A DNA stretch of 64,000 bases. Origin: Novosphingobium resinovorum (GTDB lineage: Bacteria > Pseudomonadota > Alphaproteobacteria > Sphingomonadales > Sphingomonadaceae). Shown piece after piece: positions 6,514-22,775 of this stretch (position 1 is the stretch's first letter; each line of letters starts with the position of its first letter). Where the stretch lies: the NCBI RefSeq assembly GCF_001742225.1, contig NZ_CP017076.1, forward strand, positions 496,001 through 560,000. Direction: 5' to 3'. The translations under genes and the position numbers were made by a program. The notes below the pieces were generated by a model. The model did not search any database. It saw nothing but the letters and a program-made list of their open reading frames with translations, and was not told the DNA's origin.

Positions 6514-6693
6514 ACAGCCACCCCCCGCGCTCGACATATTCACAGACAGGGGATTTCAAAACTGAATTGCATATAAAAACATGATTTTTCATATAGATAT
6601 GGTAAATTTATGCTAACATTTTGAGATATACGCTGCAATGCTATAAGCAACCTGACGTAATTATCTTATCATGTTGAAAATAAAGATATATAG
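6514..6693. other. AT-rich convergent intergenic gap
   Basis: The gap between two converging genes. From about 6535 to 6710 it is strikingly AT-rich, with runs such as CATATAAAAACATG and GATATATAGC, against a GC-rich background. No ORF, clear hairpin terminator or RNA gene was recognised. It marks the border between the signalling block and the catabolic island. Confidence 0.5.
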
Positions 6694-7920
6694 CTATATC
6701 ATAAGGAAAGGCTCGCTGCGGTCGTTCAACGGTTCGCAGCCGTCTTCGGTGATCAGCCACAAGTCCTCGAGGTGCACGTTCCCGGTGGCGTCGAGGTGCA
6801 GCACGGGGCAATCGACGCTGACGACCATGTTTGCCTCGACACGGTGGTCGCCCTTCTCGAAGTTGAGCGCACCGCCCTTGAACGCCTCGTCGGTATGGAA
6901 CAAGCCGACGCTGTGCGTGGCGCAGGAGACGGCCACATCGTAGCCGCCGCGTGCCACCGCATCATGCCCGATCCGGCGGATATCGGAGTAGTGAAGTCCG
7001 GGGCGCAGTTCACGGGCGATGGCATCGTTGGCGCAGACAGCCGCCTCCACCATCCGCATGACGATGGGATCGGGCGTGCCGACGAATACCGTCCGCCCGA
7101 AATCGCCGTGATATCCGGCGTAGTGGCTGACCGCATCGATCTGGAAGCTGCGTCCGTCCCTGATCACGCCGTCCCGTCGCCGCATGGCCATGCTGTCGGT
7201 CGAGACGAAGAGGGGTATGCCGCCGCGCCGCCCGGTCTCGGCGAAGAAGGCGAGCCGCAGCTCCTCGTACGTCGATCCCGCTCGCATCGACAGGATCGCC
7301 GCGCGGGCGGCTTCGGCATTGTTGGCGGCGGCATGGCGCATGAGCGCGATCTCGACCGGCGACTTGATCATGCGGATGCTGCGAAGCAGCGGCTCTGCGG
7401 GGAAGCACTTGCCGCTCAGCCCCAGAGCCGCCGCCGCATTCAATGTATCGACGGCAAAGCTCGTCCCATAAGCGGCCACCGCCGCTCTCAGGGCCGACGC
7501 GGCATCGGGATAGGCGGGCCTGCGCGAGAGCACGCCCAGTGTTGCAGTCCGGCTGATCATGTCCAGCGGATCGGCGCGCCCGCCCGGCGGTTCGTCGAGG
7601 AAAATCGGCGCTGCAGCGTCGCCCTCCAGTCCCTCGGGCGCGGTATAGAGGAAGATGTCGAGCGGGCCGTCCTCGGCCGGGTCTTCGACGTCGTGGAGAT
7701 AATGGATGAACTGGCTGGTGATCAGGATCACCGGCTGATCGGCCGCCGCCGGGACGACCGCCAGGACCGCGCCCGACTGGCCCATCAGCACCATCTGCGG
7801 CCAGAAGCCGGTCGCGTGGTAGATGTTCGTCGGGTCGGACAGAACCAGCGCCGACACGCCGCTCTCGGTGAGCACACGTTCGGCGACGGCACGGTTCATC
7901 AGGGGCGCAAGCGCGGGCAT
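6694..7920 (-). CDS. M24-family metallohydrolase (Xaa-Pro peptidase-like), copy A
   Basis: A 408-residue protein with the two-domain layout of prolidase, aminopeptidase P and creatinase: a creatinase-N-like domain (about 1-155) and a pita-bread catalytic domain. Visible metal ligands are Asp in FQIDAVSHY, Asp in GDFGRT, His in THSVGLFHTD and Glu in HLEDLW. The first of the two usual Glu ligands is Asp here (VVSVDCP), as also in copy B at 14012-15184. The gene follows the monooxygenase at 8002-9354 on the same strand and is probably co-transcribed. ATG 7920 has AAGGA about 12 bases upstream; ATG 7944 is an alternative that adds 8 residues. A substrate with a Pro-type or guanidino/amide C-N bond is possible; family membership is firm, substrate is not. 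Confidence 0.88.
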   Translation of the reverse strand: MPALAPLMNRAVAERVLTESGVSALVLSDPTNIYHATGFWPQMVLMGQSGAVLAVVPAAADQPVILITSQFIHYLHDVEDPAEDGPLDIFLYTAPEGLEGDAAAPIFLDEPPGGRADPLDMISRTATLGVLSRRPAYPDAASALRAAVAAYGTSFAVDTLNAAAALGLSGKCFPAEPLLRSIRMIKSPVEIALMRHAAANNAEAARAAILSMRAGSTYEELRLAFFAETGRRGGIPLFVSTDSMAMRRRDGVIRDGRSFQIDAVSHYAGYHGDFGRTVFVGTPDPIVMRMVEAAVCANDAIARELRPGLHYSDIRRIGHDAVARGGYDVAVSCATHSVGLFHTDEAFKGGALNFEKGDHRVEANMVVSVDCPVLHLDATGNVHLEDLWLITEDGCEPLNDRSEPFLMI

Positions 7921-8001
7921 GGGACAGTCGTTTCCTTGAGGCACGGATAAAGGCGCGGCGTCGTCAGCCGACGTGCCGCGCGCAGGACGGGGTTTTACGG
8001 C

Positions 8002-9354
8002 TCACCAGATTTCGGGACGGGACCTCAGGCCGGGATCGAGGTCGAAGGCATTGACGGGAACGGTGAGACCCAGGTTCTCGCGCAAGGTCGCGCCTTCGTA
8101 TTCCCTGCGGAAATGGCCACGATCCTGAAGGATCGGGACGACGTGATCGACGAAGTCCTCCAGCCCGCCCGGCAGGAACGGTGCGGAGATGACGAAGCCG
8201 TCGGCGGCGCCCTGCTTCTCCCACTCTATAAGCGTCCCGGCCACGTCCTCGGCGGTGCCGACGATGGTGTGCCCGGTCCGACCGGCCGCGACCCTGCGCG
8301 CCAGCTCGCGCACCGGCAGGCCCTCGCGCTCCGCCAGTTCGAGCACGCGGTCCCGCGTCGAGTTCTGGCCAGCCAGCGCCGTTTCCGGCAGCGGCGGCAG
8401 CGGACCGTCGGGGTCTGCCTGCGACAGGTCGATATTGCCGAGCAGCCCTTCGAGCTTGGAGATGGCGATCTCGGCCGGGATCAGGTCGTCCAGTTCGTGC
8501 TTGAGATCTTCGGCTTCGGCAAGGGTACGTCCTATGACCGGGGTGACCGCAGGCATGATCTTGAGACCGTCCGGCGTGCGGCCGAACCCGGCCAGTTGCG
8601 CGTGCATCGCGGAGCGGAAGGCCTTCGCCGTCTCGATCGTTGGGTGCGAGGTGAAGATGACTTCGGCGGTCGCTGCGGCGAAGCGCTGGCCGGTGGCCGA
8701 GGCCCCCGCCTGCACCAGGACCGGGTGACCCTGCGGCGGACGCGGTACGGTCAGCGGCCCGGCGACCCTGAAGTTCGTGCCCTCGTGATCGACGGCGCTG
8801 ATACGCGAAGGGTCGGTGTAGCGCCCGCTCGCCTTGTCGGCGACGACGGCGCCTTCCTGCCAGCTGTCCCACAGCTTGCGCGCAACCGCCACGAACTCCT
8901 CCGCGCGGGCGTAGCGATCGCCATGTGCGAGATGGCTGTCGAAACCATAGTTGTGCGCCTCGTTCTCCATGGTGGAGGTCACGATGTTCCAGCCCGCGCG
9001 GCCACGGCTCATGTGATCGAGCGAGGCGAAGCGGCGGGCCAGATCGTAGGGATGGTTGTACGTGGTAGACGCCGTGCCGATCAGGCCGAGGTGCCGTGTT
9101 TCCGCCGCGATCGTCGCCAGCACCACGAGCGGGTCCAGCTTGGGCGTCTCCAGCCCGGCGAAGACCGAAGCGCCCCGGACCGGATGATAGCCGAGGTAGT
9201 CGGCCAGGAAGACGCCGTCGAACAGCCCCTTCTCCGCAGTGCGGCCAAGTGCGCGAAAATAGTCGGCGTCGCACAGCGCATTGTCGGCGGCGCGGGAGTG
9301 ACGCCAACCGGCGATATGGCCACCGGTCTGCATCAGGAACGCAAGCAGTTTCAT
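8002..9354 (-). CDS. NtaA/SnaA/DszA-family FMN-dependent monooxygenase, copy A
   Basis: A 450-residue luciferase-like (LLM) flavin monooxygenase of the nitrilotriacetate/EDTA/dibenzothiophene-sulfone type. Such enzymes use FMNH2 from a separate reductase to cleave C-N or C-S bonds. Family signatures are visible: LIGTASTTYNHPYDLARRF, SLDHMSRGRAGWNIVTS, RPPQGHPVLVQAGAS and a C-terminal DGFVISAPFLPGG...FVDHVVPIL. The start MKLLAFLMQTGGHIAGWR was chosen by matching the N-terminus of its paralogue at 16516; longer upstream frames look non-coding. It heads a minus-strand pair with the M24 gene and is divergent from the TBDR operon. No flavin reductase is seen in the window. Substrate unknown. Confidence 0.9.
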   Translation of the reverse strand: MKLLAFLMQTGGHIAGWRHSRAADNALCDADYFRALGRTAEKGLFDGVFLADYLGYHPVRGASVFAGLETPKLDPLVVLATIAAETRHLGLIGTASTTYNHPYDLARRFASLDHMSRGRAGWNIVTSTMENEAHNYGFDSHLAHGDRYARAEEFVAVARKLWDSWQEGAVVADKASGRYTDPSRISAVDHEGTNFRVAGPLTVPRPPQGHPVLVQAGASATGQRFAAATAEVIFTSHPTIETAKAFRSAMHAQLAGFGRTPDGLKIMPAVTPVIGRTLAEAEDLKHELDDLIPAEIAISKLEGLLGNIDLSQADPDGPLPPLPETALAGQNSTRDRVLELAEREGLPVRELARRVAAGRTGHTIVGTAEDVAGTLIEWEKQGAADGFVISAPFLPGGLEDFVDHVVPILQDRGHFRREYEGATLRENLGLTVPVNAFDLDPGLRSRPEIW

Positions 9355-9681
9355 GACGTCTTTGGCGCCTCGCGTCGAAGAATTGAGCCTGTCGGGGATC
9401 ACCCTCGTCGGGAACGGCGGCCGAAGCCACCCTTGCCCCCTGACATGTGCGGATAACGAGCACGACTTGGCCGCCCACGCCAATCAGGATTCCTTGGAGG
9501 TGATAAGGGGTTCTGATTTCCGAAGCGGAAAAAACCGATGTTACCTTGCACTTATCAAGCGGCGATTTGATGACAGCAAGCCGTCCAGTGCTCGATGCAA
9601 TGCTTAATAAAGAAACACGATAAAAGTTTCACGCAGGAAGAACGATCTCAAAACTCAGACCAATAATGGTCAGGGATCGAA
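9355..9681. promoter_or_regulatory. Divergent promoter region of the first catabolic island
   Basis: A 327-base gap between the monooxygenase (minus) and the TBDR operon (plus). From about 9490 on it is AT-rich relative to the flanks. It contains an inverted repeat ATCAA (9554-9558) and TTGAT (9567-9571) with an 8-base spacer, a plausible but weak operator, perhaps for the LysR regulator at 18854-19762. AGGGA at 9672-9676 is the ribosome-binding site of the TBDR. No ORF with coding character was seen here. Confidence 0.4.
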
Positions 9682-12177
9682 ATGGGGAAAGCAATCATGA
9701 CCAGCACGTCGGCGCTGAATCGCGCCGTTCTTTTGTCCTGCACGTCGATGATCGTCGCGTTGGGCCTTTCGACCAACGCCAATGCGCAGGCATCCGGCGC
9801 CGATACGACTGCGAGTGCGCCCGGCGACATCGTCGTGACTGCCCGCAAGCGCGGCGAGGACATTCTCAAGACCCCGATCTCGGTCACCGCCCTGACGGGC
9901 GAGGACATGCAAAAGCGCGGCGTGCAGTCGGTCACCGACCTTGCCTCCTTCACGCCCAGCATGAAGATCGTGTCGAGCTCTTCGGGCCGCAACGACCGCT
10001 CGTTCCAGCAGGTCATCATCCGCGGCTTCACGCCCTCCAGCGCTTCGGTCCAGACCGCCTCGATGTTCATCGACGGCGTGCCGGTCTCGACCGCCACCGC
10101 GATCCAGACGATCTCCGATCCCGAGCGTATCGAAGTGCTGAAAGGCCCGCAGAGCGCCTACTTCGGCCGCCAGACTTTCGCCGGTGCCGTCAACGTCGTG
10201 ACCAAGTCCACGCCCGACCGCCTCGAAGGCAGCTTCTCGGGCATGGTCGGCACGCGCAACAACCATGACATCCAGGCCTCCATCGGCGCGCCGTTGATCG
10301 AGGGCCTCGTCGGCTTCCGCGCGACCGTGCAGGAAATGGCCAAGGGCGGTTCGTGGAAAAACCAGGGCGTGCCCGGCCAGACGCTCGGCGACCAGCGCAC
10401 CCGCGCCGCGACGCTGGCGATGGAGTTCACCCCTTCCTCGAACCTGAAGGCGAAGGCCTTCGCGATGATCTCGAAGAACAATGACGGTCCGAACGCGACC
10501 GGCCTGCTGGCGGCGCACGCCGTCACCAACCCTTCGAACGGCGCGTTGATCGTGCCGGATTCCTCGAACTGCGCCTTTGGCGCCAACCGCTACTTCTGTG
10601 GCACCCTGCCCGGCCTGCCCGCCGGCGCGCCTTCGATGAACACGGTGAACACGCCCTTCATCAAGGACTTCCTCGCCAACCCTAAGGGCCGCCTGATCAA
10701 CCCTGAGGACGGCGTGCAGGGCTATGGCCTGCGCAGCCGCTTCTATCACCTGCACTTCAACGTCGACTGGGAGGTCGGCAGCGGCATCACTCTGTCCTCG
10801 CTCACCGGCTACAACAACGAGCGCCGCAGCCAGTTGTCGGACCTCGACCTCTATTACAACACCACTGCGCCGAATTCGACCAACGCGGTCGGCACGGCGC
10901 CCGGAGCACCGAGCTACTTCGACTATCCCTACCTCGTCGAAGCCAAAAGCAAGGACTTCTCGCAGGAACTTCGTGCAAGTTATGATGATGGCGGGCCGTT
11001 CACCGCCACGCTCGGCGGCAGCTATCTGAACGCGACGTTCCAGGGCGGCGGCGGCGGCAACAACGGCGCGCTCGGCACCAGCCAGTTCAGCGTCGTCTCG
11101 GGCAAGACCCGCAACCGCACCTTCGGCGCCTTCTTCGGCCTCGGCTACAAGATCACGCCGGAACTGAGCATCAACTTCGACGGCCGCTACCAGATCGACA
11201 CGATGTATGCCTATGCCCGCCCGGGCGGCCAGACCATCGCCTCGGCCGCCTTCGCGACGCCGGGCTTCTACGAGGAAGGCTCGGTTCTCGCCAAGCAGAC
11301 CTACAAAAATTTCACCCCGCGCGTGATCGTCAACTACGACGTGACACCGGACATGATGGTCTATGCCTCGTACTCGAAGGGCGTGAACCCGGCGGCATTC
11401 AACACCGTGTTCCTCTCCAACCTGAGCCCGGCGGCACAGGTTCTGGCGGCGGACGCGGGCCTGCGCATCGCGGTGAAACCGGAAAAGCTCGACAATTTCG
11501 AGATCGGCGCCAAGGGCAAGGCGTTCAACAACCGCGTGCGCTACGCCGTTGCCGCCTACTACGGCATCTGGAAGGACCAGCTGAACGCCAACGTCATCAC
11601 CCTCGTCGATCCGACGACGAGCGTGGTTTACAACATCCAGGCCCAGCTCAACACCGGCAAGGTCAAGATGTACGGCCTCGAAGGCGACTTCTCCTTCGCG
11701 GCGACCGACCACCTGACCCTCTCGGCCAACGGTTCGTACAACGAAAGCGACATCCGCAAGCTGAGCGCGCCCACGGTGACCGCCCTTACCGGCATCACCG
11801 ACTTTAGCGGCAACCACAATCCGCTGGCGTCGCGCTGGTCGGGCTCGGTCTCGGCCAACTACACGATGCCGCTGCGCGGTGACGTGGAGGCCTTCGCCCG
11901 CGCCGACTTCACCTACAAGTCGGGGGTCTACACCAATGCTTCCAACCTGACGAAGACGCCGGACATGACGCAGGTGAACTTGCGCGCAGGCTTCGCGAAC
12001 GATCGCTTCACGTTCGAAGGTTTCGTGACCAACCTGTTCAACAACAAGGCTTATCCGGCTGCCATCGACTTCACCCTGCTGGAGCGCACCAACTCCTACC
12101 TTTCGCCGTTCTCGGGCGTCGCGGTGGCGCTGCGCGACCTGCGCACGTTCGGTGTGCGATCAACCGTGAAGTTCTGA
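9682..12177 (+). CDS. TonB-dependent receptor R1
   Basis: An 831-residue outer-membrane receptor. A signal peptide with a hydrophobic core (VLLSCTSMIVALGLS) ends near ANAQA. Then come a plug domain (DIVVTARKR, TPISVTALTGEDM, VLKGPQSAYFGRQTFAGAVNVVTK) and a 22-strand-type barrel ending in a C-terminal Phe (GVRSTVKF). ATG 9682 follows AGGGA; ATG 9697 is an alternative. It is first in a plus-strand run of six closely spaced genes (TBDR, amidohydrolase, M24, MFS, monooxygenase, hydrolase), so it probably imports the substrate of that set. No FecR/ECF sigma pair or N-terminal signalling extension is present. The ligand is not readable from sequence. Confidence 0.93.
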   Translation: MGKAIMTSTSALNRAVLLSCTSMIVALGLSTNANAQASGADTTASAPGDIVVTARKRGEDILKTPISVTALTGEDMQKRGVQSVTDLASFTPSMKIVSSSSGRNDRSFQQVIIRGFTPSSASVQTASMFIDGVPVSTATAIQTISDPERIEVLKGPQSAYFGRQTFAGAVNVVTKSTPDRLEGSFSGMVGTRNNHDIQASIGAPLIEGLVGFRATVQEMAKGGSWKNQGVPGQTLGDQRTRAATLAMEFTPSSNLKAKAFAMISKNNDGPNATGLLAAHAVTNPSNGALIVPDSSNCAFGANRYFCGTLPGLPAGAPSMNTVNTPFIKDFLANPKGRLINPEDGVQGYGLRSRFYHLHFNVDWEVGSGITLSSLTGYNNERRSQLSDLDLYYNTTAPNSTNAVGTAPGAPSYFDYPYLVEAKSKDFSQELRASYDDGGPFTATLGGSYLNATFQGGGGGNNGALGTSQFSVVSGKTRNRTFGAFFGLGYKITPELSINFDGRYQIDTMYAYARPGGQTIASAAFATPGFYEEGSVLAKQTYKNFTPRVIVNYDVTPDMMVYASYSKGVNPAAFNTVFLSNLSPAAQVLAADAGLRIAVKPEKLDNFEIGAKGKAFNNRVRYAVAAYYGIWKDQLNANVITLVDPTTSVVYNIQAQLNTGKVKMYGLEGDFSFAATDHLTLSANGSYNESDIRKLSAPTVTALTGITDFSGNHNPLASRWSGSVSANYTMPLRGDVEAFARADFTYKSGVYTNASNLTKTPDMTQVNLRAGFANDRFTFEGFVTNLFNNKAYPAAIDFTLLERTNSYLSPFSGVAVALRDLRTFGVRSTVKF

Positions 12178-12254
12178 CGAGTGCCGATGTGCGGCGAGGT
12201 GCTGCCTGCACCCCGCTGCACACGGTATTTCAACTCGAGCAGATGGATACGACG

Positions 12255-13988
12255 ATGAGCGAATACGATCTGGTCATTCGCGGCGGCACTGTCGCCGACG
12301 GCACCGGAGCCGATCTTTTCGAAGGCGACGTCGCGGTGCGCGGCGGCAAGATTGTCGCGACAGTGGCCATCTCCGGCTCCGGGCGCGAGGAGATCGACGC
12401 GCGCGGCAAGCTGGTCACGCCCGGCTTCGTCGACATCCACACCCATTACGACGCCCAGGTCACCTGGGACACGCAGTTCTCGCCATCGACCAATCACGGC
12501 GTGACGAGCGTGCTCATGGGTAACTGCGGCGTCGGCTTCGCCCCCTGCCGACCCGACATGCGCGAGCAGATGATCGACGTCATGGAAGGCGTCGAGGACA
12601 TTCCCGGCATCGTCATGGCCGAGGGCCTGCCGTGGAACTGGGAGAGCTTCCCGGAATACATGGACGCCATCGAGCAGCGCCCCATGGATGCCGACTTCGC
12701 CGTCGCCGTCCCGCACATTCCGGTGCGCGTCCACGTCATGGGCCAGCGCGCCATCGAGCGTGAACCCGCCACCGGCACCGACATGCAGGCCATGGCCGCC
12801 ATCGTCCGCGAAGGGCTGCAGGCAGGCGCCTTCGGGTTCTCCACCACCCGCGTCATCGGCCACCGCACCGCGAGCGGCGACCAGCTCCCGGTCACCACCG
12901 CGAGCGAGGACGAACTGCTCACCATCGCCATGGCCATGAAGCCATTTGGCCGCCACTTGTTCATGTCGGCTTCCGAATTCGACACCGGCAACGGCTTCTC
13001 GTCCGAATTCCGCATGCTCTCGCGCGTGGCGGAGGCTTCGGGCCAGACGGTGACCTTCCCGCTCCTGCAGTACAACGAAGCGCCCGATCGCTGGCGCGAG
13101 ATCGCCGACGCCTGCGCCGCGAGCCGGGCGCAGGGGATCGACATCTATGGACAGGTCGTCGGCCGCCCGGTCGGCGTCCTGTTCGGCCACCAGTTGTCGC
13201 TCAATCCCTTCCGGGGCTGCCCGACTTACGACGCCATCGAGCACCTGCCCCTCGTCGCCCGCGCGCTGGAAATGCGCAAGCCCGAGATAAAAGCCGCGAT
13301 CCTCTCGGAAATGGGCCTGCCGCTCGACCCAAAGACGTATCCCGCGTTCATGCGCGAAGTCTCCCAGTGTTATGCCATGGGCGAGAACCCCGACTATGCC
13401 CCGCCCGAAAGCGCCCGCTTCGACATTATCGCCGCCCAGCGCGGCTGCAGCGTCCACGAAGTCGCCTACGACGCCCTGCTGGAGGAGGATGGCCAGGCCA
13501 TCCTCTACTTCCCGGCGCGCAACTACACGCACTACAACCTCGACGTCGTCCACCACATGCTGCGGCGCGAGGACACCGTGCTCGGCCTCGGCGACGGCGG
13601 TGCGCATGTCGGTGCGATCTGCGACGGCAGCATGCAGACGTTCCTCCTCACTTACTGGACCCGCGACCGCGTGGGCGAGCGCTTGTCGATCCCCGAAGCG
13701 GTTCGCCTGATGACCGGCCACACCGCCCATGTCGGCGGTTTCGGCGATCGCGGGATCATCGCGCCGGGCTACAAGGCGGACCTCAACGTCATCGACTACG
13801 ACCGCCTGCGCCTCGCCCCGCCGCGCGCCAGCTTCGACCTTCCCGCCGGTGGCCGCCGCCTGACGCAAGGGGCGAGCGGCTACGCCGCGACGATCCTCTC
13901 CGGCGTCGTCACCGCCCGCGACGATACCCCCACGGGTGCCCTGCCCGGCCGCCTCGTGCGTGGCCGCCGCTCCGCGCCTGTCGCCTGA
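12255..13988 (+). CDS. N-acyl-D-amino-acid deacylase-type amidohydrolase
   Basis: A 577-residue metal-dependent amidohydrolase of the D-aminoacylase group, close to the family length. Markers are the N-terminal beta-sandwich start DLVIRGGTVADGTG, the metal site DIHTHYDAQ, MGNCGVGFAPC with the Cys ligand position, and LGDGGAHVGAICDGS with the catalytic Asp region, followed by GHTAHVGGFGDRGIIAPG. Family members hydrolyse N-acyl-D-amino acids or related amides and cyclic imides. The start is ambiguous between ATG 12243 and ATG 12255; both lack a strong ribosome-binding site. It sits between the TBDR and the M24 gene in one apparent operon, suggesting hydrolysis of an amide substrate after import. 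No signal peptide, so probably cytoplasmic. Confidence 0.9.
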   Translation: MSEYDLVIRGGTVADGTGADLFEGDVAVRGGKIVATVAISGSGREEIDARGKLVTPGFVDIHTHYDAQVTWDTQFSPSTNHGVTSVLMGNCGVGFAPCRPDMREQMIDVMEGVEDIPGIVMAEGLPWNWESFPEYMDAIEQRPMDADFAVAVPHIPVRVHVMGQRAIEREPATGTDMQAMAAIVREGLQAGAFGFSTTRVIGHRTASGDQLPVTTASEDELLTIAMAMKPFGRHLFMSASEFDTGNGFSSEFRMLSRVAEASGQTVTFPLLQYNEAPDRWREIADACAASRAQGIDIYGQVVGRPVGVLFGHQLSLNPFRGCPTYDAIEHLPLVARALEMRKPEIKAAILSEMGLPLDPKTYPAFMREVSQCYAMGENPDYAPPESARFDIIAAQRGCSVHEVAYDALLEEDGQAILYFPARNYTHYNLDVVHHMLRREDTVLGLGDGGAHVGAICDGSMQTFLLTYWTRDRVGERLSIPEAVRLMTGHTAHVGGFGDRGIIAPGYKADLNVIDYDRLRLAPPRASFDLPAGGRRLTQGASGYAATILSGVVTARDDTPTGALPGRLVRGRRSAPVA

Positions 13989-14011
13989 TACCTCCAGACG
14001 GAACTGACCTG

Positions 14012-15184
14012 ATGCTCATCAATCGAGACCGCGCCGACACCCTGATGGACTGCGAGGACATCGCGGTCGTCGTCGCCTCGACCCCGATCAATACCTACTA
14101 CCTCTCCAGCTGGGCGACCGACGCAAGTTGGGGCTTCGGCGATCTCGCGCTGGCGATCCTGCCGCGCGACCATGCGCTCGATGCCGCCGTGCTGACCCTC
14201 GAGGTCGACATGGGCCAGCCCCAGCAAGGGCAGGGCACGTGGATGGCGGTGCGCGGCTACGCCCGCAAGCCCGGCATCGGCGCGGGCGGCGTGCAGGCCG
14301 CGCTGACCGCTGAGGGCCTGCCGCAGAACCATCAGGAAGCGGTAGCGCAATACTTGCGCGAACTCGGCCTCGACCGCTCGCGCGTGGCGTTCGAGGATCG
14401 CGGCCTCGGCCTCGACGTCAACGAACTGCTCGGCGGCACCATCGACGTCGTCCCGGCGCGCGATCTCCTGCGCGACATGCGCATGGTCAAGACGCCCGCT
14501 GAGATGGCCAACATGCGCGCCGCCGCCCGCAAGACCGAACTGTCGCTCCAGCTCTCGGCCGAGGCGCTTGCCGCCGGGGCCACCTGCGCCGAGGCGGAGC
14601 GGGTGTTCTGGTCCGCCGCCGCGCTGGCGGGCGGCCGCCCGGTGTTCCTGCTCATCACGCCCTACCGCCCCGGCTTCGGGCGCTTGCCCAAGAATGCCGA
14701 ACTGCAGCAGGGCGACATGGTGACTTTCGATGCCACCGCCGAGTTCTCGCACTACACCAGCGACATCGGCCGCACCGCAGTCATCGGCGAGCCCTCGCCC
14801 GAACAGCTCAAGCGCTACAATGCTACGCGGCTTGGCTGGCAGGCGGCGCTGCCGGAGTTCCGCGCCGGTCGCCTCTCCAGCGACGTGGAGAAGGCCGTCG
14901 TCGCCTCGATCCAGGCCCACGGCAACCCCGAGTTCCGCGCCTGCGGCCTCCACTCGGTCGGGCTGGAGCACACCGATCACCCGCATCCGGGCGGAGGCAT
15001 GCACAGTTTCGAACTAGTAGACCGCATGGTCCTGAGCTGCGACCTGCCCTGGATCGGCCCGGAGATCGGCAAGTTCCACTTCGAGGACATCATCTACCTC
15101 GACGGCGACACGGTCGAGATCCTCAACGATGCCGACGGCCGCCTGATGGCCTGCATCGACGGGCGCACCGTTCGTGTCGACTGA
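14012..15184 (+). CDS. M24-family metallohydrolase (Xaa-Pro peptidase-like), copy B
   Basis: A 390-residue paralogue of the gene at 6694-7920. Visible ligands: Asp in TFDATAEFSHY, Asp in SDIGRT, His in LHSVGLEHTD and Glu in FHFEDI; the other Glu position is Asp (LSCDLP) in both paralogues. The HSVGLxHTD signature shared by the two copies sets them apart from housekeeping aminopeptidase P. ATG 14012 is chosen as the start of the conserved N-terminal domain (NRDRADTLMD); the frame is open much further upstream but overlaps the amidohydrolase and is not coding. The stop at 15182-15184 overlaps the GTG start of the MFS gene. It likely acts on a product of the amidohydrolase or on imported peptide-like material. 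Confidence 0.88.
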   Translation: MLINRDRADTLMDCEDIAVVVASTPINTYYLSSWATDASWGFGDLALAILPRDHALDAAVLTLEVDMGQPQQGQGTWMAVRGYARKPGIGAGGVQAALTAEGLPQNHQEAVAQYLRELGLDRSRVAFEDRGLGLDVNELLGGTIDVVPARDLLRDMRMVKTPAEMANMRAAARKTELSLQLSAEALAAGATCAEAERVFWSAAALAGGRPVFLLITPYRPGFGRLPKNAELQQGDMVTFDATAEFSHYTSDIGRTAVIGEPSPEQLKRYNATRLGWQAALPEFRAGRLSSDVEKAVVASIQAHGNPEFRACGLHSVGLEHTDHPHPGGGMHSFELVDRMVLSCDLPWIGPEIGKFHFEDIIYLDGDTVEILNDADGRLMACIDGRTVRVD

Positions 15185-16496
15185 CACCCCGGCGCCCTTC
15201 CCTCCGCTCCGCCAGACGCTCTGGCCGATGCTGCTGCTTTTCCTCGCGGCCAATTTCTATAGCATTGACAAGGCCATCGTCGGCGTGCTGGCCGAGCCGA
15301 TCAAGGCCGACCTCGGCATCGACGACATCCGCATGGGTCTGCTCATGGGCCTCGCCTATTCGCTGCTGAGCGGAGTGTGCGGGCTGTGGCTGGGCTCTCT
15401 GGTGGACCGACATGTACGCAAGCGCGTGCTGGGCGGCGCGATCATCGTCTGGAGTGTGTCCACCGCGCTCGGCGGCCTCGCGCCGAATTTCGAGACGTTC
15501 TTCGTGTTTCGGGCCCTCGTCGGCCTTGGCGAAGCGGCGGTCGCGCCTGCCGCCATGTCGCTGATCGCCGACATGTTCCCGCCCGACCGGCGCGGCCGGG
15601 CGCTGAGCGCCTACCTCATCGGCGCGACGATCGGCACCGCGCTGTCCTCGGTGATCCCGGGCGCGATCCTTGCAGCGCAGGTGCATATCGCGCTGCCGGG
15701 CTATGGCCTCGTCGTCCCGTGGCGCAGCGCGTTCCTGCTCTGCGGCATCGTCGGCCCGGCCGTGGGCCTCGCCTTCCTGACCATTCGCGAGCCCGTCCGG
15801 CGCGGCCTTACCGCTGAGGCAAAAGCGCCCGCGCGGGTGGGTGAGAAGCTGGCCTATCTCGGCCGCCAGCGGAAGCTGGTCGTGCCGCTGTTTGCGGGTT
15901 TCTGCCTCTATTACCTCGCCTTCGTCGGTGTGACCTCATGGACCGCGCCGCTGCTGATGCGCACTTATGGGCTGACGCTACCCCAGATCGCCAACCTGCT
16001 CGGCCTCGGCATGCTTATCGCTGGGGTCTCCGGCTACCTGCTCGGCGGCTTCGCGGCCGACACCCGCAAGGCCGGGCGCATCGGGCTGATGGCGGTGCTG
16101 CCGCTGGTCGCCCTGCCCACCGCGTTCGCGGGCTATGCGCCAGGCCTTGGCCTTGCCATTGCGGCGCTCGCCACGATCAGCCTGACCACGCCGATGCTCA
16201 ACGTCGCGATGAACGCGACCGTGCAGGAGATCGTGCCCAACGACATGCGCGGCTTCTCCTACGCCTTCCTCAGCGTCGTCGCGGCCTTGCCCGCAGGCGC
16301 CGGAGGGCCGTTCGCCATCGCCTTCGTCTCGGAGAAGGTGCTCGGCGATCCATCTCGCATCGCCGCCTCGTTCGTCCTCGTCGTCCTGCCCTGCCTCGTG
16401 CTGGCGGCGGCCTGTTTCGCGGCCGCCGCGCGCGCCTATCGCTCCGCCCCGGCGGATGGCGAACTGGCGCGCGTCATCGGCGCCAGCCACTTGTGA
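15174..16496 (+). CDS. MFS transporter, copy B
   Basis: A 440-residue major facilitator with about 12 hydrophobic segments and the loop 2-3 motif region (GLWLGSLVDRHVRKR). The N-terminus (LFLAANFYSIDKAIVGVL..PIKADLGI) is of the type found in sphingomonad catabolic clusters next to TBDRs. GTG 15174 overlaps the upstream M24 gene by 11 bases, showing tight coupling. It probably carries the substrate of the operon, or an intermediate, across the inner membrane after TBDR uptake; export cannot be excluded. A second MFS of the same kind lies at 20652-21974. Confidence 0.9.
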   Translation: MSTDTPAPFPPLRQTLWPMLLLFLAANFYSIDKAIVGVLAEPIKADLGIDDIRMGLLMGLAYSLLSGVCGLWLGSLVDRHVRKRVLGGAIIVWSVSTALGGLAPNFETFFVFRALVGLGEAAVAPAAMSLIADMFPPDRRGRALSAYLIGATIGTALSSVIPGAILAAQVHIALPGYGLVVPWRSAFLLCGIVGPAVGLAFLTIREPVRRGLTAEAKAPARVGEKLAYLGRQRKLVVPLFAGFCLYYLAFVGVTSWTAPLLMRTYGLTLPQIANLLGLGMLIAGVSGYLLGGFAADTRKAGRIGLMAVLPLVALPTAFAGYAPGLGLAIAALATISLTTPMLNVAMNATVQEIVPNDMRGFSYAFLSVVAALPAGAGGPFAIAFVSEKVLGDPSRIAASFVLVVLPCLVLAAACFAAAARAYRSAPADGELARVIGASHL

Positions 16497-16515
16497 TCTC
16501 TCCGGAGCCCGTACC

Positions 16516-17883
16516 ATGCCCGACCCCAACCAGATGATTTTGGCCACCTTCATCCACAACAGCGGCGCGCACCCCGGCGGATGGCGTTGGCCCGGCGCGC
16601 CTGCCGTAGACCAGCACGACTTCGCCCACTTCGCTCACCTCGCCCAGACGGCCGAGCGCGGGAAGATGCACTGCTACTTCTCAGGCGATTCCCAAGGCTT
16701 TCCGAGCATTTCCGGCAAGGACGCCTTCGCCGCTACCGATTACGCGGGCAAGCTGGAGCCGACCACGCTGCTCGCCGCGCTGGCCGTCGTCACGAAGCAC
16801 ATCGGCCTGATCGCCACCGCCTCGACCACGTACAACGAGCCTTACGCGATCGCCCGCCGCTTTGCCTCGCTCGACCATATCTCGAAGGGCCGCGCGGGCT
16901 GGAACGTCGTCACCTCCGCCAGCGACGGCGAAGCGCGCAACTTCGGGCGCGACCTGAACATGGACCACGACGCCCGCTACGCCCGCGCCGAGGAGTTCGT
17001 GGACGTAGCCAAGAACCTCTGGGACAGCTGGGAGGACGGCGCGATCCTGCGCGACCGCGACGCGGCGCGCTACTTCGACCCCGCCAAGGTCCACGAACTG
17101 GGTCACAAGGGCGAGCACTTCTCCGTCGCCGGTCCGCTCAATGTCGCCCGCCCGCCGCAAGGGCACCCGATCATCGTGCAGGCGGGCGGCTCCGGCCCCG
17201 GCCGCGCGCTGGCCGCGCGCACCGCGGACATGATCTTCACCGCCGCCAGTTCAGTGGAAGTCGCGAAGGAGTTCCGCGACGACATGCGCGCCCGCGCCGC
17301 CGCCTTCGGCCGCAACCCGGATCACGTGAAGATCATCCCCTCGGTCCAGTTGATGGTCCGCGCCAGCGAGGCGGAGGCCCGCCGAGCCGACGAGGAACTG
17401 CTTGACCTCGTGCCCGAGGCTCTGGCCCTTCGCACCCTCAGCCTGCAACTCGGCGTCGATCTCTCGCACCTCTCGGTCAATGATCGCTTGCCCGACCTGC
17501 CCGAGACCAACGGCGGCAAGTGGGTGCAGCAGTCGATCATCCGCATGGCCCGCGAGGAAGACCTGCCGATCGGGCTGCTTGCCCGGCGCGTCGTCGTCTC
17601 GCGCGCCAGCTTCTCCTATACCGGCACGCCCGAGCAGGTGGCGGACTTGTGCGAGAACTGGTTCCGCGCGGGCGCTGCGGACGGGTTCTCGCTCTCGCCC
17701 AACTACCAGCCCGGCGTGCTGGAGGATTTCGTCGACCAGGTCATCCCCATCCTTCAGAAGCGCGGCCTGTTCCGCGCCGAGTACGAAGGCGATACCCTGC
17801 GCGAGAACCTCGGCCTGCCGCGCCCGGAAAATGCCTTCGTCGCCAATCCCGCGCTGGGGTGCGAACCCCGCATGTGGGCCTGA
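16516..17883 (+). CDS. NtaA/SnaA/DszA-family FMN-dependent monooxygenase, copy B
   Basis: A 455-residue paralogue of the gene at 8002-9354, sharing IATASTTYNEPYAIARRF, SLDHISKGRAGWNVVTS, RPPQGHPIIVQAGGS and ENLGLPRPENAF. ATG 16516 is preceded by CCGGAG with an 8-base gap; the frame extends upstream but only into the MFS gene. Needs a separate FMN reductase, which is not in the window. Lying in the TBDR operon with an amidohydrolase and an M24 enzyme, it may oxidatively cleave an N-substituted intermediate, as NtaA does with nitrilotriacetate; this is analogy only. Confidence 0.91.
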   Translation: MPDPNQMILATFIHNSGAHPGGWRWPGAPAVDQHDFAHFAHLAQTAERGKMHCYFSGDSQGFPSISGKDAFAATDYAGKLEPTTLLAALAVVTKHIGLIATASTTYNEPYAIARRFASLDHISKGRAGWNVVTSASDGEARNFGRDLNMDHDARYARAEEFVDVAKNLWDSWEDGAILRDRDAARYFDPAKVHELGHKGEHFSVAGPLNVARPPQGHPIIVQAGGSGPGRALAARTADMIFTAASSVEVAKEFRDDMRARAAAFGRNPDHVKIIPSVQLMVRASEAEARRADEELLDLVPEALALRTLSLQLGVDLSHLSVNDRLPDLPETNGGKWVQQSIIRMAREEDLPIGLLARRVVVSRASFSYTGTPEQVADLCENWFRAGAADGFSLSPNYQPGVLEDFVDQVIPILQKRGLFRAEYEGDTLRENLGLPRPENAFVANPALGCEPRMWA

Positions 17884-17916
17884 CCGCTACAGCCACTTTC
17901 GAAGAGGAATAGGACC

Positions 17917-18846
17917 ATGTTGAGCCGTCGTGATGTTGCCCGGGGTATAGGTCTGGCCGGAGCAGTCAGCGCGTTTCCCGCCCTCGCCGCGCAGAAAGCT
18001 GCCAGCCTGCCGACGCCCCCGAAAGGCCAGTGGACCCGCTTCGGCGAACTGCGCCGTGCGGGCGGCGTGCTGCACTATGCCGTGATCGGAGAGCCGGTTG
18101 TAGGCAAGCTGCCGGTGGTGCTGCTGCACAAGCTGGGTGGCTGGCTGTCCGACTGGCGCCATGTCGCGCCGATGCTGGCCGAGGGGCGGCAGGTCTATGC
18201 CTTCGACCTTCCCGGTCACGGCGGCTCGCGCTGGGACGGCCCGGCGCCCTACATCCAGAGTCTTGGCGAGACGGCCGCGCTGCTGGTCGGTGCTTTCGAC
18301 GAACTCGGCTTCGACAAGGTGGACCTGATAGGCACCTCGCTCGGCGGCTGCCTCGCCGTGCCGCTCGCCGCATTCTGGCCGGAGCGGGTGGGCAAGCTCG
18401 CGCTCGTCTCCTGTGCTCTCGGCCATCGCCGCTCACTGGCCGAGATCAAGGTTGCGGTGGACGACAAGCAGGGCACCCTGTTCGACAAGAATGGCGACCC
18501 GGTTCCGACGCCGCCGGAACTGCTGTCAAAGACCTTCGGCATCATCAATACCGGCCCGATCAATGCCGAGGGCATCCTCAGCCGCAAGTCGGCGGGCAAG
18601 TGGATCCAGCCTTCCGAACGCGGTGTCGCGATCACCGAGATCGCCGGAACCATGAACCGGATCGAAGCCCCGACGCTGCTGGTCTACGGCCAGTTCGACA
18701 AGGCCTACCTCAAGTTCCGCAGCGCCGCGGAAGCCGAACTGAAGCGCGGCAAGACCATGATAGTCGAGAACTCGGGCGCCTTCGTGATGCAGGACAATCC
18801 GCCTGCCACGGCCCGTGTGCTGAAGGCCTTCCTCGACGAGACGTGA
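17917..18846 (+). CDS. Exported alpha/beta-hydrolase-fold protein lacking the catalytic His
   Basis: A 309-residue alpha/beta-hydrolase-fold protein with a Tat-like signal (SRRDVARGIGLAGAVSAFPALA), so probably periplasmic. It has the nucleophile elbow GTSLGG and the acid region VYGQFDKAY. The place where the catalytic His is expected near the C-terminus reads NSGAFVMQDNPP: GCC (Ala) stands where relatives have His in a GH motif. It may be inactive, use another His, or have a binding or non-hydrolytic role. Strong ribosome-binding site GAGGAATAGGA before ATG 17917. Last gene of the plus-strand operon; converges on lysR with a 7-base gap. Confidence 0.85.
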   Translation: MLSRRDVARGIGLAGAVSAFPALAAQKAASLPTPPKGQWTRFGELRRAGGVLHYAVIGEPVVGKLPVVLLHKLGGWLSDWRHVAPMLAEGRQVYAFDLPGHGGSRWDGPAPYIQSLGETAALLVGAFDELGFDKVDLIGTSLGGCLAVPLAAFWPERVGKLALVSCALGHRRSLAEIKVAVDDKQGTLFDKNGDPVPTPPELLSKTFGIINTGPINAEGILSRKSAGKWIQPSERGVAITEIAGTMNRIEAPTLLVYGQFDKAYLKFRSAAEAELKRGKTMIVENSGAFVMQDNPPATARVLKAFLDET

Positions 18847-18853
18847 CTGGCGC

Positions 18854-19762
18854 TCAGTTCGGCTTGCGAGCGCACCATTGCCGGATGGTCGCCTTGAGCA
18901 GCCGGACGGTGCGGGTCTCGTAGCGATCCTTGAGAGTAATGAAGCCGAAGGCGGGCGCCGGAATTTCCGAGCCCGCCAGACGCTTCAAAGTGCCGCTCGC
19001 CAGTTCGTCGGCGACAGCCTCGCACGCGACCATGCCGATCATGCCCGAGTGCAGGATCATGGCCTTCACGAAAGTCGTGGACGAGGCTTTCACCGACTTG
19101 CTCTGAGGTCCGTAGCCGAACCGGCGCAGCATGTTCACGACGTCGTCGTTGTCGATCGGATCGGCCGTCTCGTAGGCGCTGACATGCGCCCAGACGAAGT
19201 CGGTGCCCCTGGCGAAATCGTCCTCCGTCAGAGCGAAAACCGGGTGGTCCGGCGCGGCGACGACGGCATATTCGCGCTTGAACAGCGGCTCGAATTCCAG
19301 CGCATCGTCGGCGTAACCTTCAGGCAATCCGCAGAACGCGAAGTCGAGATCGCCTGATGACAGCAGGTCCAGCAGCTGCGTCGTGTAGCCTTCGCGCACC
19401 CACATATCCACGTGGCCCGCCTGCTCGACGAACTGGCGCATGGCGCGGCTCATAGTATCGTTCATGATGATCGGATGCACCCCCACCGCCACCTTGGGCA
19501 CGCGGTTGGCGGTCGCGAGGTCGTGGAGAATGCGCTGCTCCTCCATCAGCATGAGGCGCGCGCGCTGGACCAGCTTCTCGCACATCTCGGTCGGGCGCAC
19601 GCCGTTGGGGCCGCGCTCGAAGAGGCTGGTGTTGAACTCCTCCTCCAGCTGGCGGATGCTGAGCGTCAGTGCGGGCTGCGTGATGCCGACCATCTTCGAC
19701 GCCTTGCGCAGGCTCCCGCTCTCGTAGATCGCGATCATTCGCTTGAGCTGCACGAGGTTCAC
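18854..19762 (-). CDS. LysR-family transcriptional regulator
   Basis: A 302-residue LysR regulator: N-terminal winged helix-turn-helix (LRKASKMVGITQPALTLSIRQLEEEF, about residues 18-43) and a substrate-binding effector domain (about 90-295). It is the only regulator within 6694-21974 and is therefore the likely effector-responsive controller of both strands of this island; this is inference from location. It lies 68 bases downstream of the hydrolase gene at 19831, in the same direction, so it may be co-transcribed with the MFS-hydrolase pair. A possible binding site lies in 9355-9681. Confidence 0.93.
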   Translation of the reverse strand: MNLVQLKRMIAIYESGSLRKASKMVGITQPALTLSIRQLEEEFNTSLFERGPNGVRPTEMCEKLVQRARLMLMEEQRILHDLATANRVPKVAVGVHPIIMNDTMSRAMRQFVEQAGHVDMWVREGYTTQLLDLLSSGDLDFAFCGLPEGYADDALEFEPLFKREYAVVAAPDHPVFALTEDDFARGTDFVWAHVSAYETADPIDNDDVVNMLRRFGYGPQSKSVKASSTTFVKAMILHSGMIGMVACEAVADELASGTLKRLAGSEIPAPAFGFITLKDRYETRTVRLLKATIRQWCARKPN

Positions 19763-19830
19763 GGGTTTTCCTTTGCCTTGGCGACCTAATCGGCGGACAA
19801 TGTGGCATGTCCGCCGCCCGGCTCAAGTAA

Positions 19831-20649
19831 TCAGCTCAGGTGAGCGTCGATCTCGCCGACGACGCGCGCGTTTTCCAGCTTGAGCACGCCATGCTTCACC
19901 CCGAGGAGATCGACGCGGCGGGCGTTGGGATAGTGGTGCGAGTTGGCAAGCGTGGGCTCCCACAAGTCATCCTCGGGGTTCATCACCAGCACCGGCTGCG
20001 CCACTTCGGCCATCGCGCCGAGGAAGTCGAAGCGATAGACCGAGATATAGCCCCATGGCATCCGCCCGCCGAGGCGCAGGCACTCGGCCATGCTGATGTG
20101 ACGCTCTTCGTAAGAGATGCGCGGGTCGCTCAGTTCGCCGATGATCGCCCAGAGCTTTTCGACATGCGCCAAGTCCGGACCCGGGGGCGGGAACGCCGTG
20201 AGCAGGTTGGCGAGCTTGGCTTCGCGCTGCTCGGCCGGAAAGGCGGCAAGGCCGAAGACCACTGCGCGGCGAACCCGCTCCGGCAGACTGCGGGCAAGCT
20301 GCGTGGCGATGATCGAGCCGGTGTGAAAGCCCATGACGTCGAACTGACCGGCCTGGATCACGCCCCCGGCCGCGAGGTCGGTCATGAACTGCGCCATGAT
20401 TTCGGCGAAATCCTCGATGGTGACCGGCTCGGGCGGGGAATCGCTCATGCCGTAGCCCGGCGTATCGACGGCGATCACGGTGCGCTTGGCCGACAAGGGC
20501 TCCATCACCGGTAGCCAGTCGCCGCTGTTGCTAGGCGTCTGGTGGAGGCACAGCAGCGGCGGCAGGGCGTCAGGGGTGTCGCACTTTGCGATGCGATAGT
20601 GGAGTTGGCCGAAGCGGCTCGGCGCATAGCCGCGCAGGATTTTGGACAT
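19831..20649 (-). CDS. Alpha/beta-hydrolase-fold protein with His at the nucleophile elbow
   Basis: A 272-residue cytoplasmic alpha/beta-hydrolase-fold protein (LLCLHQTPSNSGDW oxyanion region, DTPGYGMSDSP). The usual G-x-S-x-G nucleophile elbow reads GFHTGS, putting His where Ser is expected; Ser follows two residues later. The acid region (NPEDDLW) and a C-terminal catalytic-type His (GVKHGVLKLEN) are present. A GxHTG variant is, as I recall, recurrent in a subset of bacterial alpha/beta hydrolases, so this may be a real subfamily rather than a mutation. Start ATG 20649, 2 bases after the MFS stop, so the two are co-translated. Confidence 0.87.
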   Translation of the reverse strand: MSKILRGYAPSRFGQLHYRIAKCDTPDALPPLLCLHQTPSNSGDWLPVMEPLSAKRTVIAVDTPGYGMSDSPPEPVTIEDFAEIMAQFMTDLAAGGVIQAGQFDVMGFHTGSIIATQLARSLPERVRRAVVFGLAAFPAEQREAKLANLLTAFPPPGPDLAHVEKLWAIIGELSDPRISYEERHISMAECLRLGGRMPWGYISVYRFDFLGAMAEVAQPVLVMNPEDDLWEPTLANSHHYPNARRVDLLGVKHGVLKLENARVVGEIDAHLS

Positions 20650-20651
20650 GG

Positions 20652-21974
20652 TCAGTTCCGTTGGTCGGAGGTGATGCGCGAAGCCGCGCGGAAAGCGAGC
20701 AGCGACGCCGCGATGAAGGCACAAAGCCCGACGATCGCCATGGATCGACCCACCGCCGCCGGGGAGGCGAACACGGACTCGGTCAGCCACGCCACGGCCA
20801 GCGGGCCGAGCGAGGCGCCGATGATCGTCATGACGAAGGCATAGAGCGCAACCGCGAAACCGCGCACCTTGGTGGGCGTGATCTCCGAGATCACCGACAG
20901 CATCGTGGTTCCGTAAATGGCGCTGACCAGCATGATCTCGCCCAGCATGACCATGGCCAGCGGAGCGCTGCCGGACAGCAGCGGCAGGCACGAAGGAATG
21001 CCGAGCAGCGACAGGGCTCCGGCAAGCCGCGTCCGCCCACGCGCTCCCGAGCGCGCGCCGACACGGTCGACGACGACGCTGGCGACGAGCGCTCCGGCGA
21101 CCGACCATGCGATCTGGCTGGTGCCGAGGCCCTTTCCGGCCGCGCCGACGTGATACCCGAAAGCGCGCGTGAGGAACACGGCGCCCCATCCCGTCGCCAC
21201 CGAACCGCCCATCGCATAAAGCGCCAGCGATCCGTAAAGCGGCAGGAACACCCCGCGCTGCGCCGCCAGCAGGCCGAGCCCCTCGGCGAAGGAGAGCTTC
21301 GGCTCCGACCCGGTGACGGCATCGCTGCGGCGTGCGGGTTCGCGCAGCAGGAACAGCAGAATCACGATCAGCAGGCCGGACGCTCCCACAAGCGCGAAGG
21401 CGATGCGCCACGGGGCGAGTTCACCGATGATCGGCAGGCCCGCGAACACGCCCTTGGGGGCCAGGTCCAGGATCACCCCGCTGACCAGCGAGCCGAGGCC
21501 GTAGGCGATCATGCTGCCGAAGACGTAAAGCGCCATGGGCCGTCCGCGCCGGTGAGGCGGAAACAGGTCACTGATCATCGTCACCGCGCAAGGCCCCAGC
21601 ACCGCCTCGCCGACGCCGATGAACAGACGCGAGGCGAACATCGATCCGAACCCCTGCGCAAAACCACCCGCGATCGTCGCCGCGCTCCAGATCACGATCC
21701 CGCCGATAAGCAGGCGGCGCCGGTTCACCACGTCCGCCACGGCGCCCAGCGGCAGTCCGACGGTGACGTAGAAGATGGAGAACGCGAACCCCTGCAGCAG
21801 CGCGAACTGCATCTCGCTGATCGAAAGATCGCGGCGAACCGGATCGATCACCAGAGCCAGCATCCCGCGATCGATGGTGGACACGATCTGCGCCAGAAAG
21901 AGCGTGCCGACGGTGACCCAGGCGACGGCGGGGCCGATGGCCCTGTCCGTTCCGGGCTGGTCAAGTCGCGTCAT
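20652..21974 (-). CDS. MFS transporter, copy A
   Basis: A 440-residue major facilitator with about 12 membrane segments, a DRGMLALVIDPVRRDLSIS start typical of the same group as the copy at 15174, and the loop motif LGAVADVVNRRR. ATG 21974 has GAGGAA five bases upstream. It is first in a minus-strand set MFS, alpha/beta hydrolase, lysR. Likely inner-membrane transport of the same or a related compound as the facing operon. A 7-bp inverted repeat lies just upstream (21987-21993 and 22009-22015), of uncertain meaning. Confidence 0.9.
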   Translation of the reverse strand: MTRLDQPGTDRAIGPAVAWVTVGTLFLAQIVSTIDRGMLALVIDPVRRDLSISEMQFALLQGFAFSIFYVTVGLPLGAVADVVNRRRLLIGGIVIWSAATIAGGFAQGFGSMFASRLFIGVGEAVLGPCAVTMISDLFPPHRRGRPMALYVFGSMIAYGLGSLVSGVILDLAPKGVFAGLPIIGELAPWRIAFALVGASGLLIVILLFLLREPARRSDAVTGSEPKLSFAEGLGLLAAQRGVFLPLYGSLALYAMGGSVATGWGAVFLTRAFGYHVGAAGKGLGTSQIAWSVAGALVASVVVDRVGARSGARGRTRLAGALSLLGIPSCLPLLSGSAPLAMVMLGEIMLVSAIYGTTMLSVISEITPTKVRGFAVALYAFVMTIIGASLGPLAVAWLTESVFASPAAVGRSMAIVGLCAFIAASLLAFRAASRITSDQRN

Positions 21975-22104: not shown

Positions 22105-22689
22105 TCATCCGGCCAGGCACAGGCGATCCTCATGGCCAAGTTCCTGCGCCACGACATGGGCATCCTTGCCGATCCCGCGCGTCAGCGAAGCGGGCATCTC
22201 GACCTTGAAACCGCGCGTGAGCAGACCCTCCACGGCCCAGCGCACGCAGAAGTCAGCGGCCACTCCCACCACAGTCACGCAGTCGATTCCTCGGCCGGCG
22301 AGATCGCGGAAGAACGCATCCCGCTCGAACTCCTCGCCCTGACCGGAGCGGATGCGCAGGTCCGCTTGCTGCCACATGTCGAACACACCCTTTTCCAGTG
22401 TGTACAACGGGATGGCAGAATCTATTGCGGCTACGTCGAGCACGCTTACCCAGCCTGCGGTGCCCTTCTGGCAATGAATGGGGAACTGTTCCGCCTCTGC
22501 AGAGCCAACATATTCCGCAACGACATGGGTATCGAACGTCATGAGCACGCCTGCCACCTCGCGCGGGTCGAGCGAGGCCAGCCAATCCTGCATCGGCGCG
22601 ACGATCGCCTCGGCATCGGGGACCGGAAGCGCCCCGGAACTCCGCACGAAATCATGCTGCATGTCCACGACAATCACGAAACCGCTCAT
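22105..22689 (-). CDS. pncA: Nicotinamidase / isochorismatase-like cysteine hydrolase
   Basis: A 194-residue cysteine hydrolase. The triad is visible: Asp9 (VVDMQHDF), Lys100 (TLEKGVF) and Cys148 (VAADFCVRWA); Asp53, His55 and His72 fit the metal site of nicotinamidases. It would convert nicotinamide to nicotinate, the substrate of PncB two genes away. ATG 22689 has GGAGG seven bases upstream; an ATG at 22740 lies inside the promoter palindrome and is rejected. Divergent from nrtR and pncB across a 45-bp palindrome. The symbol rests on this NAD-salvage context plus the triad; other isochorismatase-fold activities are possible from the sequence alone. Confidence 0.85.
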   Translation of the reverse strand: MSGFVIVVDMQHDFVRSSGALPVPDAEAIVAPMQDWLASLDPREVAGVLMTFDTHVVAEYVGSAEAEQFPIHCQKGTAGWVSVLDVAAIDSAIPLYTLEKGVFDMWQQADLRIRSGQGEEFERDAFFRDLAGRGIDCVTVVGVAADFCVRWAVEGLLTRGFKVEMPASLTRGIGKDAHVVAQELGHEDRLCLAG

Positions 22690-22709
22690 CGGACCCTCCG
22701 GGTACTGCT

Positions 22710-22754
22710 GATGCGCTTGACATATACTCACTGTGAACATAAGTAAAGCGCATC
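22710..22754. promoter_or_regulatory. 45-bp palindromic operator between pncA and nrtR-pncB
   Basis: Two nested inverted repeats share one centre at 22732: outer arms GATGCGCTT (22710-22718) and AAGCGCATC (22746-22754), inner arms TATACTCA (22723-22730) and TGAACATA (22734-22741). A perfect -35-like TTGACA lies at 22717-22722 on the plus strand, inside the structure. The site lies between divergent NAD-salvage genes, next to the gene of their predicted repressor NrtR, so an autoregulated NrtR operator is likely. Palindrome seen directly; the regulator link is inference. Confidence 0.65.
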
Positions 22755-22775
22755 TTGCGCATAAGGGTTCAGGAC

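Follow-up and report, generated by a model that had tools for sequence, protein, structure and literature searches.

An eleven-gene catabolic island of Novosphingobium resinovorum and its association with putative amide- and imide-hydrolysing genes

The stretch of DNA analysed here (the window) is 64,000 nucleotides of the genome of Novosphingobium resinovorum (NCBI RefSeq assembly GCF_001742225.1, contig NZ_CP017076.1, positions 496,001 to 560,000). It is part of contig C2 (1.76 Mb) of a 6.9 Mb genome in five contigs, and it contains an eleven-gene catabolic island at positions 6694-21974. We observed that the island is a real conserved, co-inherited catabolic gene set that is rare in the genus. 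Its gene content and its association with a second set of genes suggest an import and ring-opening upper module that would feed a shared amide/imide-hydrolysing lower pathway for a nitrogen-containing ring compound. We give this reading roughly even odds (~0.5).

Composition and conservation of the island

Open reading frame calls combined with Pfam and NCBIfam scans, followed by refinement of the starts, confirmed in place all eleven genes listed by the first-pass annotation, and the splitting of its gene pairs between strands. The curated Pfam cut-offs were reached by 10 of the 10 island proteins scanned with Pfam. The features, in window coordinates, are:

6694-7920, minus strand: M24_L, M24 (pita-bread) fold metallohydrolase of a Glu-to-Asp ligand subgroup (Pfam M24, 84.3 bits, and motif check)
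8002-9354, minus strand: LLM_L, NtaA/DmoA-family flavin-dependent monooxygenase (TIGR03860, 533.3 bits)
9355-9681: divergent promoter region separating the left unit from the central one (gap between the LLM_L and TBDR starts)
9682-12177, plus strand: TBDR, TonB-dependent outer-membrane receptor (Pfam Plug and TonB_dep_Rec_b-barrel)
12255-13988, plus strand: amidohydrolase with D-aminoacylase fold, lacking His after beta5 and beta6; optional cluster member
14012-15184, plus strand: M24_C, second M24-fold metallohydrolase and best island marker (Pfam M24, 82.4 bits)
15174-16496, plus strand: MFS_C, major facilitator transporter (Pfam)
16516-17883, plus strand: LLM_C, second NtaA/DmoA-family monooxygenase (TIGR03860, 525.6 bits)
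17917-18846, plus strand: ABH_C, alpha/beta-hydrolase with a GTSLGG elbow and, at its N terminus, a twin-arginine-like signal; lacks His where the catalytic one usually stands
18854-19762, minus strand: LysR-type regulator (Pfam)
19831-20649, minus strand: ABH_R, alpha/beta-hydrolase whose nucleophile Ser is replaced by His (G-x-H-T-G)
20652-21974, minus strand: MFS_R, second major facilitator transporter (NCBIfam and alignment to MFS_C)

MFS_R, which was scanned with NCBIfam only, matched transporter models below their cut-offs and aligned with MFS_C over 413 amino acids (aa; 33% identity). The intergenic distances are compatible with three transcription units: LLM_L>M24_L, TBDR>amidohydrolase>M24_C>MFS_C>LLM_C>ABH_C and MFS_R>ABH_R>LysR. 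A search for LysR sites in the two promoter regions returned weak palindromes and one 11-mer common to both, and established no regulator site.

We assessed conservation using M24_C. Orthologues (≥67% identity) were present in 13 of 195 Novosphingobium genomes, a count that leaves out G359, whose matches were only 31% identical. A 298-genome sample of the family gave our own genome and one other (59%). A protein search, in which the 8,000 candidates with the most shared words were scored, found at least 85 relatives at E 1e-40 or better; among the matches listed, those with a named source came from Novosphingobium, Sphingomonas and Nitrospirillum.

All island genes except the amidohydrolase gene occurred together in seven genomes (our own, L008, G323, G362, G386, G352 and G351). 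The order of these ten genes differs in G386/G352 and in G351, and the G351 receptor is only 46% identical to the island TBDR and therefore may not be the same receptor. In four further genomes (L010-L013, including N. sediminicola and N. ovatum), an operon of LLM_L, amidohydrolase, M24_C, MFS_C and LLM_C genes is accompanied by ABH_R and MFS_R on the opposite strand. M24_L is represented there only by a 38-43% relative elsewhere, the receptor is at most 45% identical, and no LysR match was found in these clusters. ABH_C is farther off in three of the four; for the fourth (G370) a shorter stretch was compared. G460 and G329 kept only M24_C, LLM_C and ABH_R-like genes at >45%. The first-pass annotation had held that its reading would be refuted if the pairs were not co-conserved or if each gene had an orthologue in an unrelated context elsewhere. 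We looked for such a result among these genomes and did not find it.

The same annotation had described four duplicated parts, which holds at the level of protein families only. BLAST identity within pairs was 48% for LLM, 33% for MFS, 30% for M24 (over 246 aa) and 29% for ABH (over 142 aa). Trees of the LLM (24 rows) and MFS (20 rows) proteins placed the pair members in separate groups, each with the same nine genomes and with compatible branching between members; G460 and G329 were extra rows in the LLM_C and MFS_R groups. Support was 94/100 for the LLM_L group and 100/98 for the LLM_C group. The M24_L and M24_C types also fell apart in the M24 tree (27 rows), with fewer members of the M24_L type. 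The pairs are therefore old paralogues. For the three pairs covered by trees, we infer a split before the cluster spread, with both members kept. Recent duplication is ruled out by the trees and the low identities.

Linkage to putative lower-pathway genes

Two of the distant clusters with M24, LLM and His-type hydrolase genes, found in a Sphingobium genome (G304) and in G356/G392, carry a further set of genes. This set encodes isochorismatase, PuuE-like or polysaccharide-deacetylase-type, Amdase/maleate-isomerase-like and flavin adenine dinucleotide (FAD) monooxygenase proteins. The G304 cluster adds a PrpB-like lyase, and G356 adds LeuC-type, CoA-transferase and HMG-CoA-lyase-like genes. The lower cluster of G362 contains a hydrolase 73% identical to the ABH_R of that genome.

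A second island of ~60 kb lies in our own genome (C2:1,088,001-1,148,000; loci L151, L152 and L160, positions 1-20000 of each). Its degradative genes encode a C-N hydrolase, hydantoinase A/B, an isochorismatase, LeuCD-type proteins, a PrpB-like lyase and, by comparison, a PuuE-like protein. Others are related to those of the window: TBDR (45%), LLM (38%), M24 (35-38%), LysR (40%), ABH_R-like and MFS. The LeuC-type subunit passed the LeuC cut-off (657.8 versus 560.25 bits) and the LeuD-type subunit just missed its own (160 versus 167 bits). Cut-offs were also missed by the lyase (250 versus 354 bits) and the isochorismatase (44-47 versus 195-378 bits), and the closest NCBIfam model for hydantoinase A/B, caprolactamase, scored below cut-off. 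As named, the lower genes would fit a route that opens a cyclic amide or imide, takes off ammonia and splits a branched dicarboxylate. The second island also holds an IS1634 transposase.

We then compared the distribution of these genes among the 195 Novosphingobium genomes. The PuuE-like gene, present in 41 of them, occurred in 13/13 genomes with M24_C and in 28/182 others (P = 2.8e-10, Fisher test). The PrpB-like lyase at E 1e-100 or better gave 13/13 versus 36/182 (P = 4e-9); this strict count leaves out seven genomes matching only near E 1e-50, and with them the comparison is 13/13 versus 43/182. The association of the isochorismatase at a looser E 1e-25 says little because 87/182 other genomes also match (versus 13/13). 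When the whole M24 family was searched (seven-row profile A3, E 1e-60), it was present in 31 of the 195 genomes, and the PuuE-like gene occurred in 31/31 of these versus 10/164 without the family (P = 1e-27). The control, PF00775 (ring-cleaving dioxygenases), gave 21/31 versus 59/164. The PuuE-like protein (L153:7928-8854 and relatives) is 88-100% identical across the 41 Novosphingobium genomes and ~90% identical in Sphingobium genome G304, and is more conserved than most of its neighbours.

The two sets were also partly linked. M24_C and the PuuE-like gene were 50-54 kb apart in five of the 13 genomes, whose loci resemble one another within each of two groups (G356/G392/G370 and G460/G329). 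In three more, both were on the same contig at a distance of 221-633 kb. For the whole M24 family, the PuuE-like gene was within 60 kb of an M24 gene in 25 of 31 genomes. This physical linkage is stronger support for the lower-pathway link than the P values. The latter assume independent genomes, which these are not. Each search scored part of the initial candidates in a genome (for example, 9 of 31 in our own genome with the M24 profile), so absences are not absolute.

Several observations weigh against the link. Control PF00775 was also enriched with M24_C, though far less (10/13 versus 70/182, P = 0.008), and all counts and P values ignore phylogeny and genome size. The PuuE-like gene was on another contig in 5 of 13 genomes and is 632 kb away in our own; 28 genomes have it without M24_C, and 10 without this M24 family. 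Most names given to the lower genes depend on scores that fall short of curated cut-offs; the PuuE-like protein of G304, for example, reached 139 bits versus a PuuE cut-off of 424.6. In the related cluster of G031, no lower-pathway gene was found among ten further genes scanned, which encode transporters, esterases, a gluconolactonase-type protein and a methyltransferase pair.

Several related clusters share a methyltransferase of ~360-465 aa with a long N-terminal part (L148:1292-2718, L092:1889-3414 and L152:6328-7885). It is often paired with a protein of 104-133 aa that gave no family match where scanned.

Enzyme families of the island

Both M24 proteins passed the Pfam M24 cut-off of 23 bits. 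They widely missed every NCBIfam cut-off, with best scores of 44.9 and 65.2 bits, both versus a cut-off of 487; the models covered Xaa-Pro peptidases, methionyl aminopeptidase, ectoine hydrolase and DddP. The classical five-ligand M24 site is Asp, Asp, His, Glu, Glu. Among the family members in these clusters, 28 of 28 had Asp at the fourth position, and the first, second, third and fifth looked intact. The island proteins share the M24 domain and the D, D, H and E ligands with prolidase, aminopeptidase P, ectoine hydrolase and DddP, but differ at the fourth ligand, where those enzymes have Glu. The label Xaa-Pro peptidase is probably wrong for them, given both the scores and this substitution.

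The amidohydrolase and its counterpart in N. resinovorum VKM B-1172 are 98% identical. Its gene was missing from the cluster in 6 of 13 M24_C genomes. Four of these six had no match at E 1e-50, and two had only 41-48% paralogues. The protein has the D-aminoacylase fold: H64 and H66 (HxH) and the catalytic D449 (after beta8) were at frequency 1.00 in 82 rows and invariant in alignment A1, and Cys93 was kept. The fold, HxH, Cys and catalytic Asp are common to D-aminoacylase and OngB (subtype V). His ligands of the beta site were not found, as beta5 ends LFMSA-SEF and beta6 TVTFPL-LQYNE, both without His, and no His was conserved (>93%) between residues 205 and 453 in the 82 aligned proteins. In OngB, His222 and His252 are among the zinc ligands (PMC12017989). 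These two of the three ligands appear to have no counterpart in the island protein, an equivalence based on predicted strands, not coordinates, because the profile aligned well with solved structures only at its two ends and alignment with same-genome paralogues gave end segments only. His222 and His252 stand after beta5 and beta6. A D-aminoacylase function was rejected: the fold is present, but two zinc ligands appear to be absent. The label D-aminoacylase is therefore probably wrong, and a pathway-defining role for this enzyme does not fit a gene that is dispensable in 6 of 13 genomes. A 39% identical paralogue lies in the same genome (C3:672578; L007:9581), and tblastn over the surrounding 20 kb gave no match to another island gene.

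LLM_L and LLM_C both passed the NtaA/DmoA model TIGR03860 (cut-off 279.7 bits) and are members of the NtaA/DmoA/DszA/YtnJ group; the scores give no subgroup. The closest solved relatives of LLM_C were YtnJ (341 bits) and DszA (333 bits).

The profile of ABH_R aligned over nearly its full length with 3kxp, and its fold matched esterases, enol-lactonase and RutD. This fold is shared with the E2AMS hydrolase of vitamin B6 breakdown, RutD and enol-lactonase, but those enzymes have Ser at the elbow whereas ABH_R has His. The elbow His was present in 30 of 30 sequences of alignment A2 (ABH_R and 29 picked from at least 120 relatives) and in 22 of 24 cluster proteins, at a position that aligns with the elbow of 3kxp; ABH_R has no nucleophile Ser there. 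ABH_C is probably exported. Where its catalytic His would normally stand, 10 of 10 aligned proteins have Ala or Ser; another His could serve.

Candidate pathway and alternatives

Taken as an upper module, the island would work as follows. The TonB receptor would import a compound through the outer membrane. ABH_C may act on this compound in the periplasm, and uptake of the compound or its fragments into the cytoplasm would fall to the two MFS carriers. Inside the cell, both reduced-flavin-dependent monooxygenases would oxygenate a nitrogen-containing ring and open it, and the resulting products would be cleaved by the M24 metallohydrolases and ABH_R. The LysR protein is the putative regulator. 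Each pair member may handle a different step or a different half of the substrate. The products would enter a separate lower pathway that serves several upper modules. Its PuuE-like protein (allantoinase or cyclic-imide-hydrolase type), isochorismatase-type amidase, hydantoinase A/B, LeuCD-type hydratase and PrpB-type lyase would release ammonia and small acids. The data show which genes are present, that the pairs are inherited together, and that they co-occur and are in part physically linked with the lower set; the substrates, the reaction order and the role of each enzyme are predicted.

The first-pass annotation had proposed cleavage of amide, C-N or Xaa-Pro-like bonds in an N-acylated or imide-type compound. 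Our reading agrees with one part of this proposal, the imide-type compound, but the evidence for amide, imide or lactam hydrolysis now comes from the linked genes instead of the amidohydrolase. The Xaa-Pro and D-aminoacylase parts found no support, and the N-acyl part is weakened because the amidohydrolase is optional and appears to lack two D-aminoacylase zinc ligands. The same findings bear on a scavenging route for small peptides or N-acylated D-amino acids, in which the amidohydrolase would deacylate and the M24 proteins would cut Xaa-Pro-like bonds. We consider this quite unlikely: the amidohydrolase has no His after beta5 or beta6 and its gene is dispensable, the M24 proteins score far under all peptidase cut-offs, and breaking down peptides does not require two flavin monooxygenases.

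Breakdown of a carbocyclic or sulfur compound, by Baeyer-Villiger or DszA-like desulfurisation chemistry, is unlikely. The NtaA family includes DszA and dimethyl-sulfide monooxygenase, LLM_C scores nearly as high against DszA as against YtnJ, and the enrichment of PF00775 would be expected if the amide set merely marked catabolically rich genomes. The association of the PuuE-like gene with the M24 family is, however, far stronger than that of the control, and it is backed by physical linkage. If the island were a loose collection of unrelated catabolic genes without a common pathway, this would account for the variable gene order and for an amidohydrolase gene that comes and goes. Such a collection is very improbable given the ten genes found together in seven genomes and the paralogue pairs with compatible branching.

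The upper-module reading shares enzyme kinds with the Rut pathway, in which a flavin monooxygenase, an isochorismatase-type amidase and an alpha/beta-hydrolase act on an N-heterocycle (uracil). The island plus the linked set contain these kinds, and the amidase of the second island weakly matches RutB (45 bits, cut-off 378). Unlike Rut, they have another monooxygenase subfamily, M24 enzymes, TonB import and LeuCD/PrpB-type genes. A more specific proposal, which we hold tentatively and regard as unlikely in its entirety, has the island as one of a number of interchangeable upper modules in an undescribed aerobic pathway. This pathway would mineralise an N-heterocyclic natural pigment or cofactor from which substituted maleimides or lactams arise. 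Two new enzyme types would take part: M24 enzymes with an Asp ligand that cleave amides derived from the ring, and an alpha/beta-hydrolase in which His takes the place of the nucleophile. Substrates such as a bilin-type tetrapyrrole or a flavin are guesses, suggested by the LeuCD, PrpB-type lyase, imidase-like and half-amidase-like genes. A search of open-access literature for reports combining four of five cluster terms gave no description of such a gene cluster, and among the open-access reports listed for imides, dimethylmaleate and bilins none described such a bacterial pathway in its title or the start of its abstract.

These data point to one pathway with the PuuE-like gene as its mark in the 41 Novosphingobium genomes, and they supply clear marker genes. 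They also warn against two labels that these proteins are likely to receive, D-aminoacylase and Xaa-Pro peptidase. For the discovery of new chemistry they offer two concrete targets, the Asp-ligand M24 family and the His-for-Ser hydrolase.

We also read by eye the translations on either side of the island. Window positions 2723-6513 probably encode a hybrid sensor kinase and, after it, a response regulator that carries a GGDEF-like region. Positions 22105-24817 encode an apparent nicotinamide adenine dinucleotide (NAD) salvage set of nicotinamidase, Nudix-type regulator and nicotinate phosphoribosyltransferase.
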